A DNA stretch of 64,000 nt from Rhodocytophaga rosea (GTDB taxonomy: Bacteria; Bacteroidota; Bacteroidia; Cytophagales; 172606-1), in the NCBI RefSeq assembly GCF_010119975.1, contig NZ_CP048222.1, forward strand, positions 8,656,501 to 8,720,500, given 5' to 3'. Under the pieces are notes generated by a model. It saw only the letters and a program-made list of their open reading frames with translations, was not told the origin of the DNA and did no database searches. This document shows, piece after piece, positions 13,829-20,547 of this stretch (the stretch's first letter is position 1; each line of letters opens with the position of its first letter). The translations under genes were made by a program, and so were the position numbers.

Positions 13829-15277
13829 TTAATAGCCACTTACTGCAGTAATTGGTGCTGACATTTCAAGCGAATGGAAAGTATGAAAAAGAGTTTTGCC
13901 AGCTTTGATATCAAAATTCATCGGATGAGTTTGTTCCATGCCTGCGTTTATGCCAGATTTGGTTATAAACTGCACCTGCTGGTTGCCTTCAGGCAATGAT
14001 AAGCGGGTATAATAAATCCCATGCGGTACAGATTGCCAGCTTCTGGTGTCTGCCTGTTCGGTGATTGCATTCACCAGGCCAATGAGGGCACCTGCATTGT
14101 CGTTCTCCTTTCGCATCGTGTATTCAGCGGCTTTCTTCAAGGCTACCCTCAATACAGATTTTCCTACTTCCAGCAACATCCGTTGGTTTAGTGTTTTAAA
14201 AGCAATCGCATTTACATCTTCTGCCAGATTAAGCGGATAGGATTGGTCATTCCAAACCAATTGTGCATGATTGTACAGAGCTGGGCGTTCTACATATTTA
14301 GGGAATGTAATCCGAATAAATTCCAGTGAACTGAGTCCGCTTTTATGGTAAGTACTGTCATCCATAGGAAACGCAAAATTCAGCGCAAGATCCTGGTTGG
14401 TAAAATTTACTACGCCCCCCTGCCCGCGAAGAATGGTAAAATTAATACCATTTTCTACTTTTACCGGACCTAATCCATTGTGCCACAAAAATACCAGATC
14501 TCCTTTTTTCGACTTGTCATGCTTGTATTGCATGCCAAACTCCTTCTCGTAGCGACGTAAGTCTTCGCTAAAATTATTCACATACGCTGTTCTAAGCAGA
14601 TCTTCCTTTAATTGTTGTGGCACTTCCTGGTTGAAGAACTTGTGGTAATCATTCTGGTAAATATCGAGGGCATTCCGGTAAGCAATGAAAGCATTATTCG
14701 CATCACCATTGGCATCATATATAATTCCCATCAGCAGATGAATAAAGGCATCCCGTTGAAATTTATTTTCAGAGGTATACTTACTGCTCAGCTTGCTCAG
14801 TTTTATATCCATCCGCTTGCATTCCACCAGGGCAGCTTCTTTATCACCTAATTTCAAAAAATTCAGGGCTTTGTAATAATGCACCATCAAAATCTCAAAA
14901 TCTTCGCCCTTATATTCCACAATATTAGGATTCAGCAGAAAGGAGGCAGCTTCATTCAGGTAATTTACCTGGTAATCTTCGCCGAGCATATAGGCTTTTT
15001 CAAAATAAACATTGCTCTCTGCATAATTTCCTTGTAAAGAAGCTACAACCCCCATATTCATGTAATAGAGTAACTTTGTTTTACGGGTTTCTGCTTTTTT
15101 ATCTTTCGCTAAAGCCGCCTGTGCTTCCCCAAAATTACCCCGTTCAAAATTGCTGTTAAACGTATAGATCGTCTGATAGTAATTCATGCAGGAAGAGCAC
15201 AGAACCGTCAGTAATGATAGATATAGAACAACAGCAGGCCGGATTATAATACGATTTTTCAACGGTCGGGGTAACAT
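13829..15277 (-). CDS. COG3014-family TPR-like lipoprotein
   Basis: 482 residues. A hydrophobic N-terminus ends in CSSC (Cys30), a lipobox. The first ~230 residues are helical pairs like tetratricopeptides (FERGNFGEAQAALAKDKK, YNMGV..LQGNYAESNVYFEKA, LKLGDKEAALVECKRM, YDANGDANNAFIAYRNAL); a beta-rich C-terminal domain follows. This matches the COG3014 family found next to LpoB-like proteins in many Bacteroidota and Proteobacteria. Role unknown, probably in the periplasm or at the outer membrane. It begins 66 bases after the LpoB-like gene and is probably its second cistron. Confidence 0.78.
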   Translation of the reverse strand: MLPRPLKNRIIIRPAVVLYLSLLTVLCSSCMNYYQTIYTFNSNFERGNFGEAQAALAKDKKAETRKTKLLYYMNMGVVASLQGNYAESNVYFEKAYMLGEDYQVNYLNEAASFLLNPNIVEYKGEDFEILMVHYYKALNFLKLGDKEAALVECKRMDIKLSKLSSKYTSENKFQRDAFIHLLMGIIYDANGDANNAFIAYRNALDIYQNDYHKFFNQEVPQQLKEDLLRTAYVNNFSEDLRRYEKEFGMQYKHDKSKKGDLVFLWHNGLGPVKVENGINFTILRGQGGVVNFTNQDLALNFAFPMDDSTYHKSGLSSLEFIRITFPKYVERPALYNHAQLVWNDQSYPLNLAEDVNAIAFKTLNQRMLLEVGKSVLRVALKKAAEYTMRKENDNAGALIGLVNAITEQADTRSWQSVPHGIYYTRLSLPEGNQQVQFITKSGINAGMEQTHPMNFDIKAGKTLFHTFHSLEMSAPITAVSGY

Positions 15278-16228: not shown

Positions 16229-17541
16229 GCCTTTTTCATGGCCATACGGCTATTAATGAAATAGATTAGGGCACCGGCAGCAATAATGCCTAATCCAATA
16301 CATGATTCCAGCGGTCGCTCTATCAATACATAGATCATAATCCAGGTGTTGGCTAGAAGAAATAAGGCAGGTGTGAACGGATAACCCCAGGTTTTATAGG
16401 GCCTTGGCAAATCAGGACGGCGCCATCTGAGCACATACACACCGGCTACTGTTAAAGTAGTAAGCAACATCAGGGTAAAAGCGGCATATACAATTACCTG
16501 CTCGAAGGAAGACGTGTAAATGAAAATCAGAGTTATGAGGGTTTGAAACAAAATGGCATTCACTGGCGTATGGCGCACCGTCCGGAGAGATAAAAGATGC
16601 AAAGCCGGATAATCTTCTCCCATGACCTGCGTAATACGTGCTCCCACAAATATCATGGCGCTAATGGTAGATATCATCAAGGCCGCTATCAGCAAGGATA
16701 AAACATCAGCGGCGGTTGTCCCAAATAATTTATTACCTGCCAGAAAGCCTATTTCCACTTTGCCAGCCAGTTCTGCCATAGGTACCGTATAGAGAAATAC
16801 ATAATTAAGTAAGGCATATAGTACCAGTACCAGAAGTGTACTTAAAAAAAGCGCCTTCGGAAGATTCTTCTGAGGATTCCTTAATTCTCCTACCACATAA
16901 ATAGAAGCATTCCAGCCGGTGTAGGCATAGGAAACATATACCAGAGATACGGCAAAAGGCGGACTTAACAACACTTTCCAGTCTGAAAATTCAGGCAGCA
17001 GGCTGATCGATTGTGGTGTATTGGTAGTAAATCCAAAGAAGATAAAAATCAGCATAACACCGATTTTAATAAGCGTAAAAAAATTCTGAAAATAACTTCC
17101 CAGCCGGATACTGATACTATGAATAACAGCAAAGACTATCACTACCACTGCCGCCAGATGATTAACTGGTACTGAAGGAAACACAACGGCCGTATACTTT
17201 CCCAGGGCAATGGCAGCAATGGCCGTTGGCGCTACAAATCCGGCTGTAGCTGATACCCATCCGGATAAGAAACCCATCGCCGGATGATAAATAGCTGTCA
17301 GTAAATGATATTCTCCTCCGGACCTTGGAAGCGCCGTACCGAGTTCTCCGTAAGAAAGTGCCCCACATAAAGCTATAATTCCTCCTACAATCCAGAGCAT
17401 AATCAACGCAAAAACTGACTGTATATCTACTACCTGGTATCCCAGACTGGTAAATACACCTGTTCCTACCATATTGGCAATAGCAATTGATGCAGCCGTA
17501 TGTAAACCAATGGTTTTGTGGTGGGCATTAGATGTTGGCAT
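16219..17541 (-). CDS. APC-family amino acid permease
   Basis: 440 residues with about 12 membrane helices. The first helix carries the substrate-binding Gly-rich stretch IANMVGTGVFTSLGY (APC signature G-x-G), followed by 'GALSYGELGTALPRSGGEYHLL', typical of the amino acid/polyamine/organocation superfamily (LAT-like subgroup). It imports or exchanges amino acids across the inner membrane; the substrate cannot be read from sequence. It is transcribed away from the poly-cysteine leader and redoxin gene, sharing a 554-base intergenic region with it. That arrangement may link both to amino-acid supply, but this is inference. Confidence 0.88.
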   Translation of the reverse strand: MPTSNAHHKTIGLHTAASIAIANMVGTGVFTSLGYQVVDIQSVFALIMLWIVGGIIALCGALSYGELGTALPRSGGEYHLLTAIYHPAMGFLSGWVSATAGFVAPTAIAAIALGKYTAVVFPSVPVNHLAAVVVIVFAVIHSISIRLGSYFQNFFTLIKIGVMLIFIFFGFTTNTPQSISLLPEFSDWKVLLSPPFAVSLVYVSYAYTGWNASIYVVGELRNPQKNLPKALFLSTLLVLVLYALLNYVFLYTVPMAELAGKVEIGFLAGNKLFGTTAADVLSLLIAALMISTISAMIFVGARITQVMGEDYPALHLLSLRTVRHTPVNAILFQTLITLIFIYTSSFEQVIVYAAFTLMLLTTLTVAGVYVLRWRRPDLPRPYKTWGYPFTPALFLLANTWIMIYVLIERPLESCIGLGIIAAGALIYFINSRMAMKKASE

Positions 17542-17643
17542 ATAAAATCTTGATTGAAAGATAATTATCTACGAAGCACAATATTATACCTATTCAGATG
17601 TAAGTTATTAATATTAAAAAAAGCAAAGAAAAAGATAATCAGA

Positions 17644-17675
17644 TTTGGTAATTATAAAAATAGTTAGAATATTTG
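17644..17675 (+). promoter_or_regulatory. candidate Bacteroidota promoter for the leader
   Basis: TTTG at 17644-17647 and AATATTTG at 17668-17675, 20 bases apart. The Bacteroidota consensus is TTTG, 17-23 bases, TAnnTTTG, so the downstream element has one mismatch. Transcription would begin about 17682, some 26 bases before the leader ORF. Confidence 0.35.
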
Positions 17676-17707
17676 TCTATTAATTTAGTAGACAATAAAA
17701 AGAACGC

Positions 17708-17791
17708 ATGATAATTACGGCAAATAGTCAAGTAAACATTTTTAGTAATGTAAATCCCTTTACATTAACTTGTCGTTGCTGTTGTTGCTAA
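17708..17791 (+). CDS. poly-cysteine leader peptide (upstream ORF)
   Basis: A 27-codon ORF starts with ATG ATA ATT ACG and ends TCRCCCC-stop, so five of the last six residues are Cys (codons TGT CGT TGC TGT TGT TGC TAA). Position, size and end composition are those of a leader peptide whose translation stalls when charged cysteine tRNA is short. Poly-Cys leaders of this kind are known to control sulfur genes in mycobacteria. I am not aware of a firmly described Bacteroidota counterpart, but could not check. It lies 304 bases before the redoxin gene, which encodes no cysteine at all. That it is translated is inferred from sequence only. A chance ORF of this length is possible, but such a dense C-terminal Cys run is unlikely by chance. 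Confidence 0.6.
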   Translation: MIITANSQVNIFSNVNPFTLTCRCCCC

Positions 17792-17909
17792 TCTCCCCTG
17801 TATAGGTTTTGGCAAACCTCACAAATTGCCAGCTTTCAATCCTATTTAATTATCTATTGCTGCATGATTGATTTCTGTCAATACAGCCGTGTTTTTACGC
17901 TGTTCTGAA

Positions 17910-17940
17910 GACAGAATGTTGTAGCGTCTGTCCATTATTT
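17910..17940 (+). promoter_or_regulatory. candidate attenuator hairpin in the redoxin leader
   Basis: GACAGA (17910-17915) and TCTGTC (17927-17932) form a stem with an 11-nt loop, followed by CATTATTTTG. A smaller hairpin ACAGC / GCTGT lies just upstream (about 17883-17903). The T tract is weak, so it could be a terminator or only a structured leader. Confidence 0.35.
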
Positions 17941-18095
17941 TGTCTGACCATGCAGAATTATTCAACCTATCATTGGAGAAAAAGCAGATGTTCATTTTAT
18001 ACTCAATCCTGGCTCAGCCGATGTTGTAGTGAATAATTCATCAGATCAGTAAATCAAACTAAATATATCTATCTCAATTCTAAATAAAGAAACTC

Positions 18096-18734
18096 ATGTA
18101 TTCATATTCATTTTCCGATAGCGAACTTTTATCCATTTCTGAGCAATGGTTACACAAAGTAAAGAGTAATGAGCCGCTGCCACAGCCTTTAACCGCTGGC
18201 AGCCAGTCGCCTGAATTTGTTGTTGAAACTTATCCTGGCATCTGGTCTGGCTTATTGTCTCCTTTAGCCCAGTCCAGCCACATCAGCCTGAATGATCTGA
18301 CAGGTTACCGCCCCTTAGTAATCAGTTTTTACAATCCACATACCCATGACTATGGACACCAGCAGATACAAACTTTAATTAGCCTGTATGATAAAATCCG
18401 GGCCTTAGGAGGAGAACTGCTGGTGATTACAGCGGAATCTGCCGAAAACATTCAACTTATTGCTTCTCATTATAAGCTTCCTTTCACGATAGTGCAGGAT
18501 GCTGGCAACCGGATTGCTTCTCAGTTTGGTCTTTTCTCAGCCGCTCACCCGGTTTGGGACAGAATAGCTGGCGTAGATGAGAATGTGGCTACGCCTGCAA
18601 CGTATGTGATCGCACCTGGCGGGCAAATCACCTATGCTTTCGCAGACAGTGAGTTTAACAAACAACTACCAGTTCGTCCCATGCTTTCTGCTGTTTACTC
18701 TACAAGCAGCAACCGCATCAGAAAGGTAGCCTAA
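18096..18734 (+). CDS. cysteine-free redoxin (peroxiredoxin-like fold)
   Basis: 212 residues with an AhpC/TSA-like thioredoxin fold at about 40-200: 'YRPLVISFYNP', 'IRALGGELLVITAESAENI', 'YKLPFTIVQDAGNRIASQFGL', then 'TPATYVIAPGGQITYAFAD' with a cis-Pro context. In active peroxiredoxins the motif after strand beta3 is Pro-x-x-x-Thr-x-x-Cys. Here it reads PHTHDYGH (81-88), with Tyr86 where the peroxidatic Cys should be, and the whole protein contains no cysteine. It therefore cannot be a thiol peroxidase; a binding, regulatory or unknown role is inferred. The poly-Cys leader lies upstream and a hairpin downstream. The SDR and ATP-grasp genes follow on the same strand. Confidence 0.72.
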   Translation: MYSYSFSDSELLSISEQWLHKVKSNEPLPQPLTAGSQSPEFVVETYPGIWSGLLSPLAQSSHISLNDLTGYRPLVISFYNPHTHDYGHQQIQTLISLYDKIRALGGELLVITAESAENIQLIASHYKLPFTIVQDAGNRIASQFGLFSAAHPVWDRIAGVDENVATPATYVIAPGGQITYAFADSEFNKQLPVRPMLSAVYSTSSNRIRKVA

Positions 18735-19677: not shown

Positions 19678-20547
19678 ATGAAAATAGCGTTTGTCACCTA
19701 CCAGGACCAGGGAAAGTATGTTTCATCTGTAGAAAATGAAGATGAAAAGCTGCTTGCATTTTTGCAAAATAAAGGCCATTCTATTGAGTTCGCCATCTGG
19801 AATGACCCAACTGTAGACTGGCAGCAATATGACCTGGCGATTGTAAAATCTCCCTGGGATTATTTTGATAACATCGGTTTATTTTATCAGTGGCTGGATA
19901 CTCTGAAAAGCCTGCAGGTACGTTTGCTGAATCCATATGAAACTGTACGCTGGAATGCTGATAAGCATTATTTATTGGATATTGCTCAAGCCGGACTACC
20001 CATTACCTCTTCGCTATTTATAGAAAAAGGCTGGAAAGCAGAACTGCCAGCGTTGTTTGACAAGATGAGGGCAGAAAAGTTGATCATTAAACCTTGTGTA
20101 AGCGGCGGTGCCAAACATACCTATGCCTTTACCAGAAATGAAGCCACACAACTTTCTTCTGTAATAGACCAGTTATTAACGCATGAAGCCTTTCTGGTGC
20201 AGCCTTTTCTTCCGGAAATTGAAACGCAGGGAGAATGGTCTTTTGTATTCTTTCACGGAAAGTTCAGCCATTGTCTGCTGAAAAAAGCCAAACCTGGTGA
20301 TTTCAGGGTACAGCATTATTTAGGTGGTACGATTCATACAGGAGATGTTCCAGATCAATTGCTGGAACAGGCAGCAAGATTTGTAGGAAAATTTGCCGGA
20401 AATTGCCTTTATGCCAGGGTAGATGGCGTAGTTATTCATGATGAATTTGTGCTGATGGAACTGGAATTAATAGAACCTTTCCTGTTCCTGTTCACCCATT
20501 CGCAGAGCTACGAAAATTACTACCGGGCTTTACAAGAATTACTATAA
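19678..20547 (+). CDS. RimK/glutathione-synthetase-like ATP-grasp protein
   Basis: 289 residues. The N-terminal domain (1-100) is a Rossmann-like pre-ATP-grasp fold with 'DLAIVKSPWDYFDNI'. The ATP-grasp part follows: WNADKHYLLDIAQAGLPIT, then the nucleotide-binding LIIKPCVSGGAKHTY, then EAFLVQPFLPEIETQGEWSF, and the metal-binding RVDGVV...LMELELIEP near 255-270. These enzymes ligate a carboxylate to an amine or thiol through an acyl phosphate in the cytosol; the substrates are unknown here. The start ATG at 19678 follows the SDR stop by 15 bases. Confidence 0.82.
   Translation: MKIAFVTYQDQGKYVSSVENEDEKLLAFLQNKGHSIEFAIWNDPTVDWQQYDLAIVKSPWDYFDNIGLFYQWLDTLKSLQVRLLNPYETVRWNADKHYLLDIAQAGLPITSSLFIEKGWKAELPALFDKMRAEKLIIKPCVSGGAKHTYAFTRNEATQLSSVIDQLLTHEAFLVQPFLPEIETQGEWSFVFFHGKFSHCLLKKAKPGDFRVQHYLGGTIHTGDVPDQLLEQAARFVGKFAGNCLYARVDGVVIHDEFVLMELELIEPFLFLFTHSQSYENYYRALQELL

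Follow-up and report, generated by a model that had tools for sequence, protein, structure and literature searches.

A putative cysteine-sensing leader ORF upstream of a cysteine-free peroxiredoxin-fold gene in Rhodocytophaga rosea

The classical leader-peptide transcription attenuators are those of the trp and his type. The described systems closest to the arrangement reported here come from actinobacteria. They are the leaderless short ORFs with poly-cysteine runs in mycobacteria (Canestrari 2020, through its citation in PMC9094748 and PMC9031893) and the Cys leader peptides described by Seliverstov 2005 (PMC1262725). In a flavobacterial transcriptome (PMC9723704), leader-peptide attenuation is described upstream of amino-acid operons, and the passages cited here do not name cysteine. 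No cysteine leader in Bacteroidota was recognised among the literature matches listed, which cover few subscription papers. In Pseudomonas, a peroxiredoxin has been tied to sulfur limitation: LsfA, which is of the 1-Cys type, belongs to the response to sulfur starvation (PMC12581299, PMC4199769).

The window analysed here is a stretch of 64,000 nt from the genome of R. rosea. Its forward strand contains a leader ORF of 27 codons (leader ORF 1, 17708–17791; ATG at 17708, TAA at 17789–17791) for the peptide MIITANSQVNIFSNVNPFTLTCRCCCC-stop, a putative cysteine sensor. The last codons read TGT CGT TGC TGT TGT TGC TAA, and the poly-Cys end TCRCCCC-stop described in the initial annotation is verified in the sequence. 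A candidate promoter, TTTG-N20-AATATTTG (17644–17675, forward strand), can be read directly from the sequence, with TTTG at 17644–17647, a spacer of 20 nt and AATATTTG at 17668–17675; the Bacteroidota promoter consensus is TTTG/TAnnTTTG. The sequence of the candidate promoter named earlier is present, and its distance to the leader ATG is corrected from 33 to 32 nt. The hairpin reported after the leader is the small AGGTTT-TGGC-AAACCT (17804–17819, forward strand), which has no U-tract. The leader stop and the redoxin gene are separated by 304 nt (17792–18095), in which lies a weak, possible leader ORF 2, MQNYSTYHWRKSRCSFYTQSWLSRCCSE-stop (17950–18036, forward strand). Its stop is 59 nt 5′ of the redoxin, and its end, SRCCSE-stop, holds just two Cys. 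The upstream region of the R. aerolata redoxin reads DRCCCLPRF at about −74, which may be compared with leader ORF 2.

The redoxin (18096–18734, forward strand) has 212 residues and no cysteine, as originally claimed. It matches the AhpC-TSA family (PF00578) with 58 bits, and the best matches of its structural model (pLDDT 90) are Bcp-type peroxiredoxins, with TM-scores (query length) of 0.56–0.64. The place of the peroxidatic Cys is taken by Asn, SFYN standing where Cys-bearing relatives show SFYC; the family orthologues have Ser or Thr, and the Spirosoma, Dyadobacter and Rudanella rows have Cys at this position. As the peroxidatic Cys is lost, the protein is unlikely to be a thiol peroxidase and is best described as a predicted sulfur-poor member of the peroxiredoxin fold. 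It contains a single Met besides the start. Among 25 mechanically called R. rosea ORFs of 180–245 aa, Cys-free ORFs are not rare (5/25), and none has a sum of Cys and Met, start excluded, as low as 1. The mean number of further Met is about 0.8–0.9 per redoxin over 135 proteins, with or without a leader (subgroup means 0.5 to 1.4); the Met content of the ORFs of R. rosea, the sole proteome compared, is 1.86%. The low Met of the redoxin family examined fits a general sulfur economy. An ATP-grasp protein is encoded in the window at 19678–20547, 3′ of an SDR gene, and scores 157 bits with the D-cycloserine synthetase model (cut-off 360).

The initial annotation proposed that cysteine had been removed from the redoxin to keep its synthesis possible during cysteine starvation. 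This proposal is partly supported: the poverty in Met agrees with it as sulfur economy, but in Chitinophaga the leader does not explain the Cys loss. Redoxins of this genus are Cys-free at 23/23 loci with a leader and at 48/53 without one. Because the Cys-free state is about equally common without a leader, the leader is not the cause of the Cys loss, and we rejected it as the explanation. Over the 135 loci, leader and Cys-free redoxin are associated with a Fisher p of 3e-5, where the tree provides only 4 independent pairs on starred branches and 8 on all branches, numbers too small for a test.

A profile scan of named genomes gave 65 redoxin orthologue loci. The counterpart leader in R. aerolata, MNYTRTYKPVMVSAPSSADFIHCLYASSGCCCCL-stop, lies 374 nt 5′ of the redoxin and has the end ASSGCCCCL-stop. 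Leaders ending in CCCC-stop are found upstream of the redoxin in several Chitinophaga species, and Mucilaginibacter myungsuensis has one ending in WRCCCCCHQLQ-stop; the leader of Xanthocytophaga (YACYCCW-stop) is weak and that of Telluribacter (L169) is doubtful. No leader was found upstream of the redoxin in a MAG of the same family (L105) or at the Runella loci. Seventy-seven of 79 Chitinophaga genomes possess the redoxin. A leader is present in 24 of 77 upstream regions tested, whereas the reverse strand gave 1 and the average over 200 shuffles was 0.8 (maximum 4); among the 24 loci are one with a broken gene (L368) and two copies from one genome. The stop of the Chitinophaga leaders is 50–102 nt 5′ of the redoxin. 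At L368 the redoxin gene is broken and the leader is intact, and the two copies of the redoxin in one genome (L306 and L369) are identical.

The non-redundant set, from which L368, a locus at a contig end (L333) and seven duplicates were left out, consists of 135 loci, 29 with a leader (L133 and L169 doubtful, L110 weak) and 106 without; the reverse strand gave 2. The initial annotation had named the absence of Cys-rich ORF ends upstream of orthologues as a refutation of its idea; such ends do occur, though at a minority of the loci, and the idea withstands this check. On a quick tree, gain and loss of the leader take 8 changes by parsimony, at least 4 of which are forced by starred branches. 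The suggestion that the divergent amino-acid permease belongs to the same response is unsupported, because no permease stands at that place in the four family orthologue loci, whose neighbours were read by eye.

The same device precedes sulfur genes. Upstream of the sulfite reductase operon of R. rosea, which encodes sulfite reductase, a tetrapyrrole methylase (SUMT) and a siroheme-synthase/PAPS-reductase fusion (Pfam), there are tandem poly-Cys leaders, MTKCCCACCCC-stop and MMKHIHTTCCDTTCCCCYSTMERLCMG-stop (14504–14590 of the genome region 3916001–3935000). A strong intrinsic terminator lies 3′ of the second of these cysI leaders, and an imperfect one is readable after the first. Another R. 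rosea leader, ending in QPCCCCCC-stop, is located upstream of SusC, SusD and two sulfatases (Pfam), and no terminator was found there by the same rule. Among upstream regions from the order, Cys-rich cysI leaders were found in 9 of 26, that of R. rosea included and one (L394) distal and doubtful, with 1 on the reverse strand and the fragments L406–L408 left out. Six of these nine leaders are followed by a terminator, and in the family of R. rosea 4 of 8 regions have a leader.

A scan for the CCCC-stop pattern gave 95 places in 13 genomes versus 17 for the reversed control, totals that are not a survey, as the genomes were hand-picked, most for having a redoxin leader. Of 93 places examined, 72 are inside ORFs of more than 150 aa and 21 outside; of the latter, 13 possess an ATG and lie no more than 400 nt from the start of a gene, and 8 have no ATG. 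The genes behind 15 leaders (these 13, the window and cysI) are TonB-dependent receptors (4), redoxins (3), TonB (3) and one each of cysI, metX, PhyH, S10 peptidase and an unknown gene, identities that were checked for seven representatives and for the R. rosea SusC. A direct sulfur link is evident only for cysI, metX and the sulfatase operon. In M. myungsuensis, a SAM riboswitch and, after it, the CCCC leader stand 5′ of metX, which puts two sulfur signals in series. Poly-Cys leaders also stand before a PhyH-type dioxygenase gene (L268) and an S10 peptidase gene (L272), possible sulfur-scavenging genes, and Chitinophaga tropicalis has a leader, MFSYNYCCCCCC-stop, 189 nt 5′ of a 120-aa ORF that has no Pfam match.

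Two explanations would deny 17708–17791 a role as a sensor. In favour of a chance ORF of the intergenic region stand the 4.2% of 20,000 dinucleotide shuffles of 17542–18095 that show a looser tail, with three or more Cys among the final 12 residues, and the absence of the leader at most redoxin orthologues. Against chance, none of the 20,000 shuffles has a CCCC-stop sORF on the forward strand, and counterparts exist in the congener R. aerolata and in other families. Across the R. rosea genome, sampled at even spacing by 17 stretches of 20 kb (340 kb, 53.7 kb of it outside ORFs of at least 100 aa), three sORFs have the looser tail and no sORF on either strand has 4 Cys in the last 6 residues. 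The Cys-ended leader ORF 1 is genuine, and we regard a chance origin as extremely improbable. The ORF could instead encode a functional Cys-rich peptide for metal or thiol binding, for which the Cys content speaks and nothing further. The N-termini, however, are unlike between genera while the Cys runs are retained, and the groups of same-length leaders have 21 amino-acid versus 10 silent changes (summed over pairs), again with the Cys run retained. As a varied peptide with a kept Cys run is what one would expect of a codon sensor and not of a working peptide, and as the same design is found upstream of unrelated genes, a functional peptide is very improbable. The Cys codons of 28 leaders comprise 81 TGT and 32 TGC.

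The layout is repeated in relatives before the redoxin and before sulfur genes, and therefore it is probably a switch for cysteine shortage. We believe, with a probability of about 0.8, that 17708–17791 forms the coding portion of a leader that senses cysteine in a sulfur-limitation regulon. The earlier proposal, which placed a cysteine-responsive attenuator in this Bacteroidota genome, appears well supported by the leaders at orthologues and at sulfur genes. Against the sensor reading stand the 106 leaderless orthologues, the doubtful or weak cases among the 29 leaders, the long gap between leader and gene, the lack of a terminator or of significant pairing in the window, and the lower frequency at leader loci of a palindrome described below.

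The step under control at the redoxin locus would be either termination by Rho, from which a stalled ribosome would shield the RNA, or the release of translation initiation. The RNA from 17680 to 18110 is more stable than all of 100 shuffles (z −3.1), and no covariance model of an Rfam cis-regulatory RNA matched 17540–18140 up to E 1. Terminator scans found no intrinsic terminator between leader and redoxin in the window, unlike at the cysI leader of R. rosea, and did not class 17804–17819 as one. Transcription attenuation by Rho or by a weak terminator in 17792–18095, with the stalled ribosome shielding the RNA, is consistent with the length of this gap, with the structured leader RNA and with the terminators behind most of the cysI leaders; the same idea was proposed for mycobacterial Cys leaders that have no terminator, according to the passages cited from PMC1262725. 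The negative terminator scans of the leader region speak against it, and we consider this mechanism somewhat less probable than even.

The other mechanism is translational attenuation, in which the Cys run would serve as an anti-initiation sequence paired to the first redoxin codons, and a stalled ribosome would free them. None of 28 redoxin leader loci (the window, R. aerolata, Mucilaginibacter, Xanthocytophaga and 24 of Chitinophaga) has a terminator-like hairpin between leader and redoxin, which agrees with this mechanism. RNAalifold folds the CUGUUG run onto CAACAG, at about codons 4–8 of the redoxin, in Chitinophaga groups of 8, 4 and 3 loci. A complementary motif (AACAAC, CAACAG, ACAACA or CAACAA) lies in +1 to +40 at 17 of 24 Chitinophaga loci with a leader and at 4 of 52 without one (Fisher 3e-8, descent ignored; L333 and L350 left out of the leaderless starts), and in −20 to +40 at 17 versus 7. 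At 15 of the 24 leader loci the pairing beats 96% or more of the base shuffles of that locus's start; when the leaderless starts are the comparison, just 6 of the 24 reach this level, and one leader group runs contrary to the trend. These counts are not independent, because 20 of 23 Chitinophaga leader loci belong to one clade. In the window, pairing of either Cys run with the redoxin start is no better than in shuffles, and the pairing was not found in R. aerolata, in five MPNxTTSEK loci or at the eight leaders of other genes tested. Translational attenuation is thus a tentative proposal, with the odds leaning against it.

The candidate promoter overlaps by one base, its last, with the palindrome GTCTATTAATTTAGTAGAC (17675–17693), a candidate operator. 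In the 8.98-Mb genome of R. rosea, TCTATNNANTTAGTAGA has 2 exact matches, the one in the window included, and 9 places with at most one mismatch, compared with 2 for the control. One of the nine (L085) stands 5′ of a TonB receptor gene (Pfam), and reading by eye gave no clear sulfur link at the remaining places of this genome. The palindrome consensus, sought on both strands, was found upstream of 64 of 135 redoxins with at most one mismatch (0 in five rounds of shuffles) and of 100 with at most two (0–4 in shuffles), counts that are biased in its favour, as the consensus was built from the same loci. With at most two mismatches it is present at 86 of 106 leaderless loci versus 14 of 29 with a leader. 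In six Chitinophaga genomes, hand-picked for a redoxin that has no leader, a stricter pattern gave 10 places versus 0 in the control. Four are at redoxins (by position) and three at divergent TonB receptors, one of which was checked with Pfam and resembles by eye the receptor behind the R. rosea site. The remaining three are at the gene of a 1-Cys peroxiredoxin (L374, one mismatch), at a SusC-type gene (L377) with its own leader QSCCCCN-stop, and at another SusC-like gene (L370).

An Rrf2 gene is divergent to the redoxin and the palindrome at a Rudanella locus (L031), and two similar Rrf2 genes are found in the genome of R. rosea (L094 and L103). With the CymR model they score 71, 80 and 74 bits, respectively, so that none reaches the cut-off of 195, and the IscR model does nearly as well (72 bits for L103, 67 for L031). 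We infer that an Rrf2 protein of the CymR/IscR kind may bind 17675–17693. Within 1643–6933 of L103, the second R. rosea Rrf2 gene has two sulfatase genes and an ORF resembling SusD as its neighbours.

In the proposed mechanism, scarcity of Cys-tRNA would stall the ribosome at the Cys codons that close the leader, and the redoxin downstream would be expressed more strongly as a result. With ample cysteine, the leader would be translated through and redoxin expression would stay low. A transcription factor at 17675–17693, for which an Rrf2 protein of the above kind is the candidate, would probably provide a second signal. A cell short of sulfur would thereby make a sulfur-poor peroxiredoxin-fold protein that has no catalytic Cys. 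A wider picture, which we offer as a conjecture that is rather less probable than even, is a Bacteroidota cysteine-starvation regulon of poly-Cys leaders and an Rrf2-type operator, whose output would include a dedicated sulfur-free peroxiredoxin-fold protein and in which the Cys codons of Chitinophaga would double as an anti-initiation sequence for the redoxin; the starved codon would then itself repress translation. If true, Bacteroidota would be a second phylum in which the translation of a leader senses cysteine, next to genes for sulfate assimilation, methionine synthesis, TonB-dependent uptake and sulfatases. The analysis provides a concrete gene list for a sulfur-limitation regulon of soil Bacteroidota, and it raises the question of what role a Cys-free and nearly Met-free peroxiredoxin has in a sulfur-starved cell.

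Compared with CymR, the cysteine regulator of the Rrf2 family, the R. rosea system is alike in its two Rrf2 genes and in the one beside the Rudanella redoxin and site; it differs in that all candidates are under the cut-off, with IscR nearly as good for two of them, and in that binding is only predicted. LsfA, as far as the cited passages describe it, is similarly a peroxiredoxin-fold protein tied to sulfur limitation, and a 1-Cys peroxiredoxin gene of one Chitinophaga carries the palindrome; unlike LsfA, the redoxin of the window has no Cys, and LsfA-type thiol chemistry is therefore impossible for it. The cysI leaders of R. rosea and its relatives resemble the trp/his-type attenuators, with a Cys-rich leader followed by a hairpin and a U-tract, whereas the redoxin leader has no such terminator. 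The likeness to the mycobacterial poly-Cys leaders, as the cited passages present them, consists in a short ORF with a Cys run near the stop, in a position also upstream of sulfur genes, and in the 28 tested redoxin leader loci that have no intrinsic terminator. Because the candidate promoter lies 32 nt 5′ of the ATG, the leader of the window is perhaps not on a leaderless transcript. The putative system described here further differs from the mycobacterial one in its Bacteroidota host, in its peroxiredoxin-fold target and in the palindrome that stands alongside the leader.
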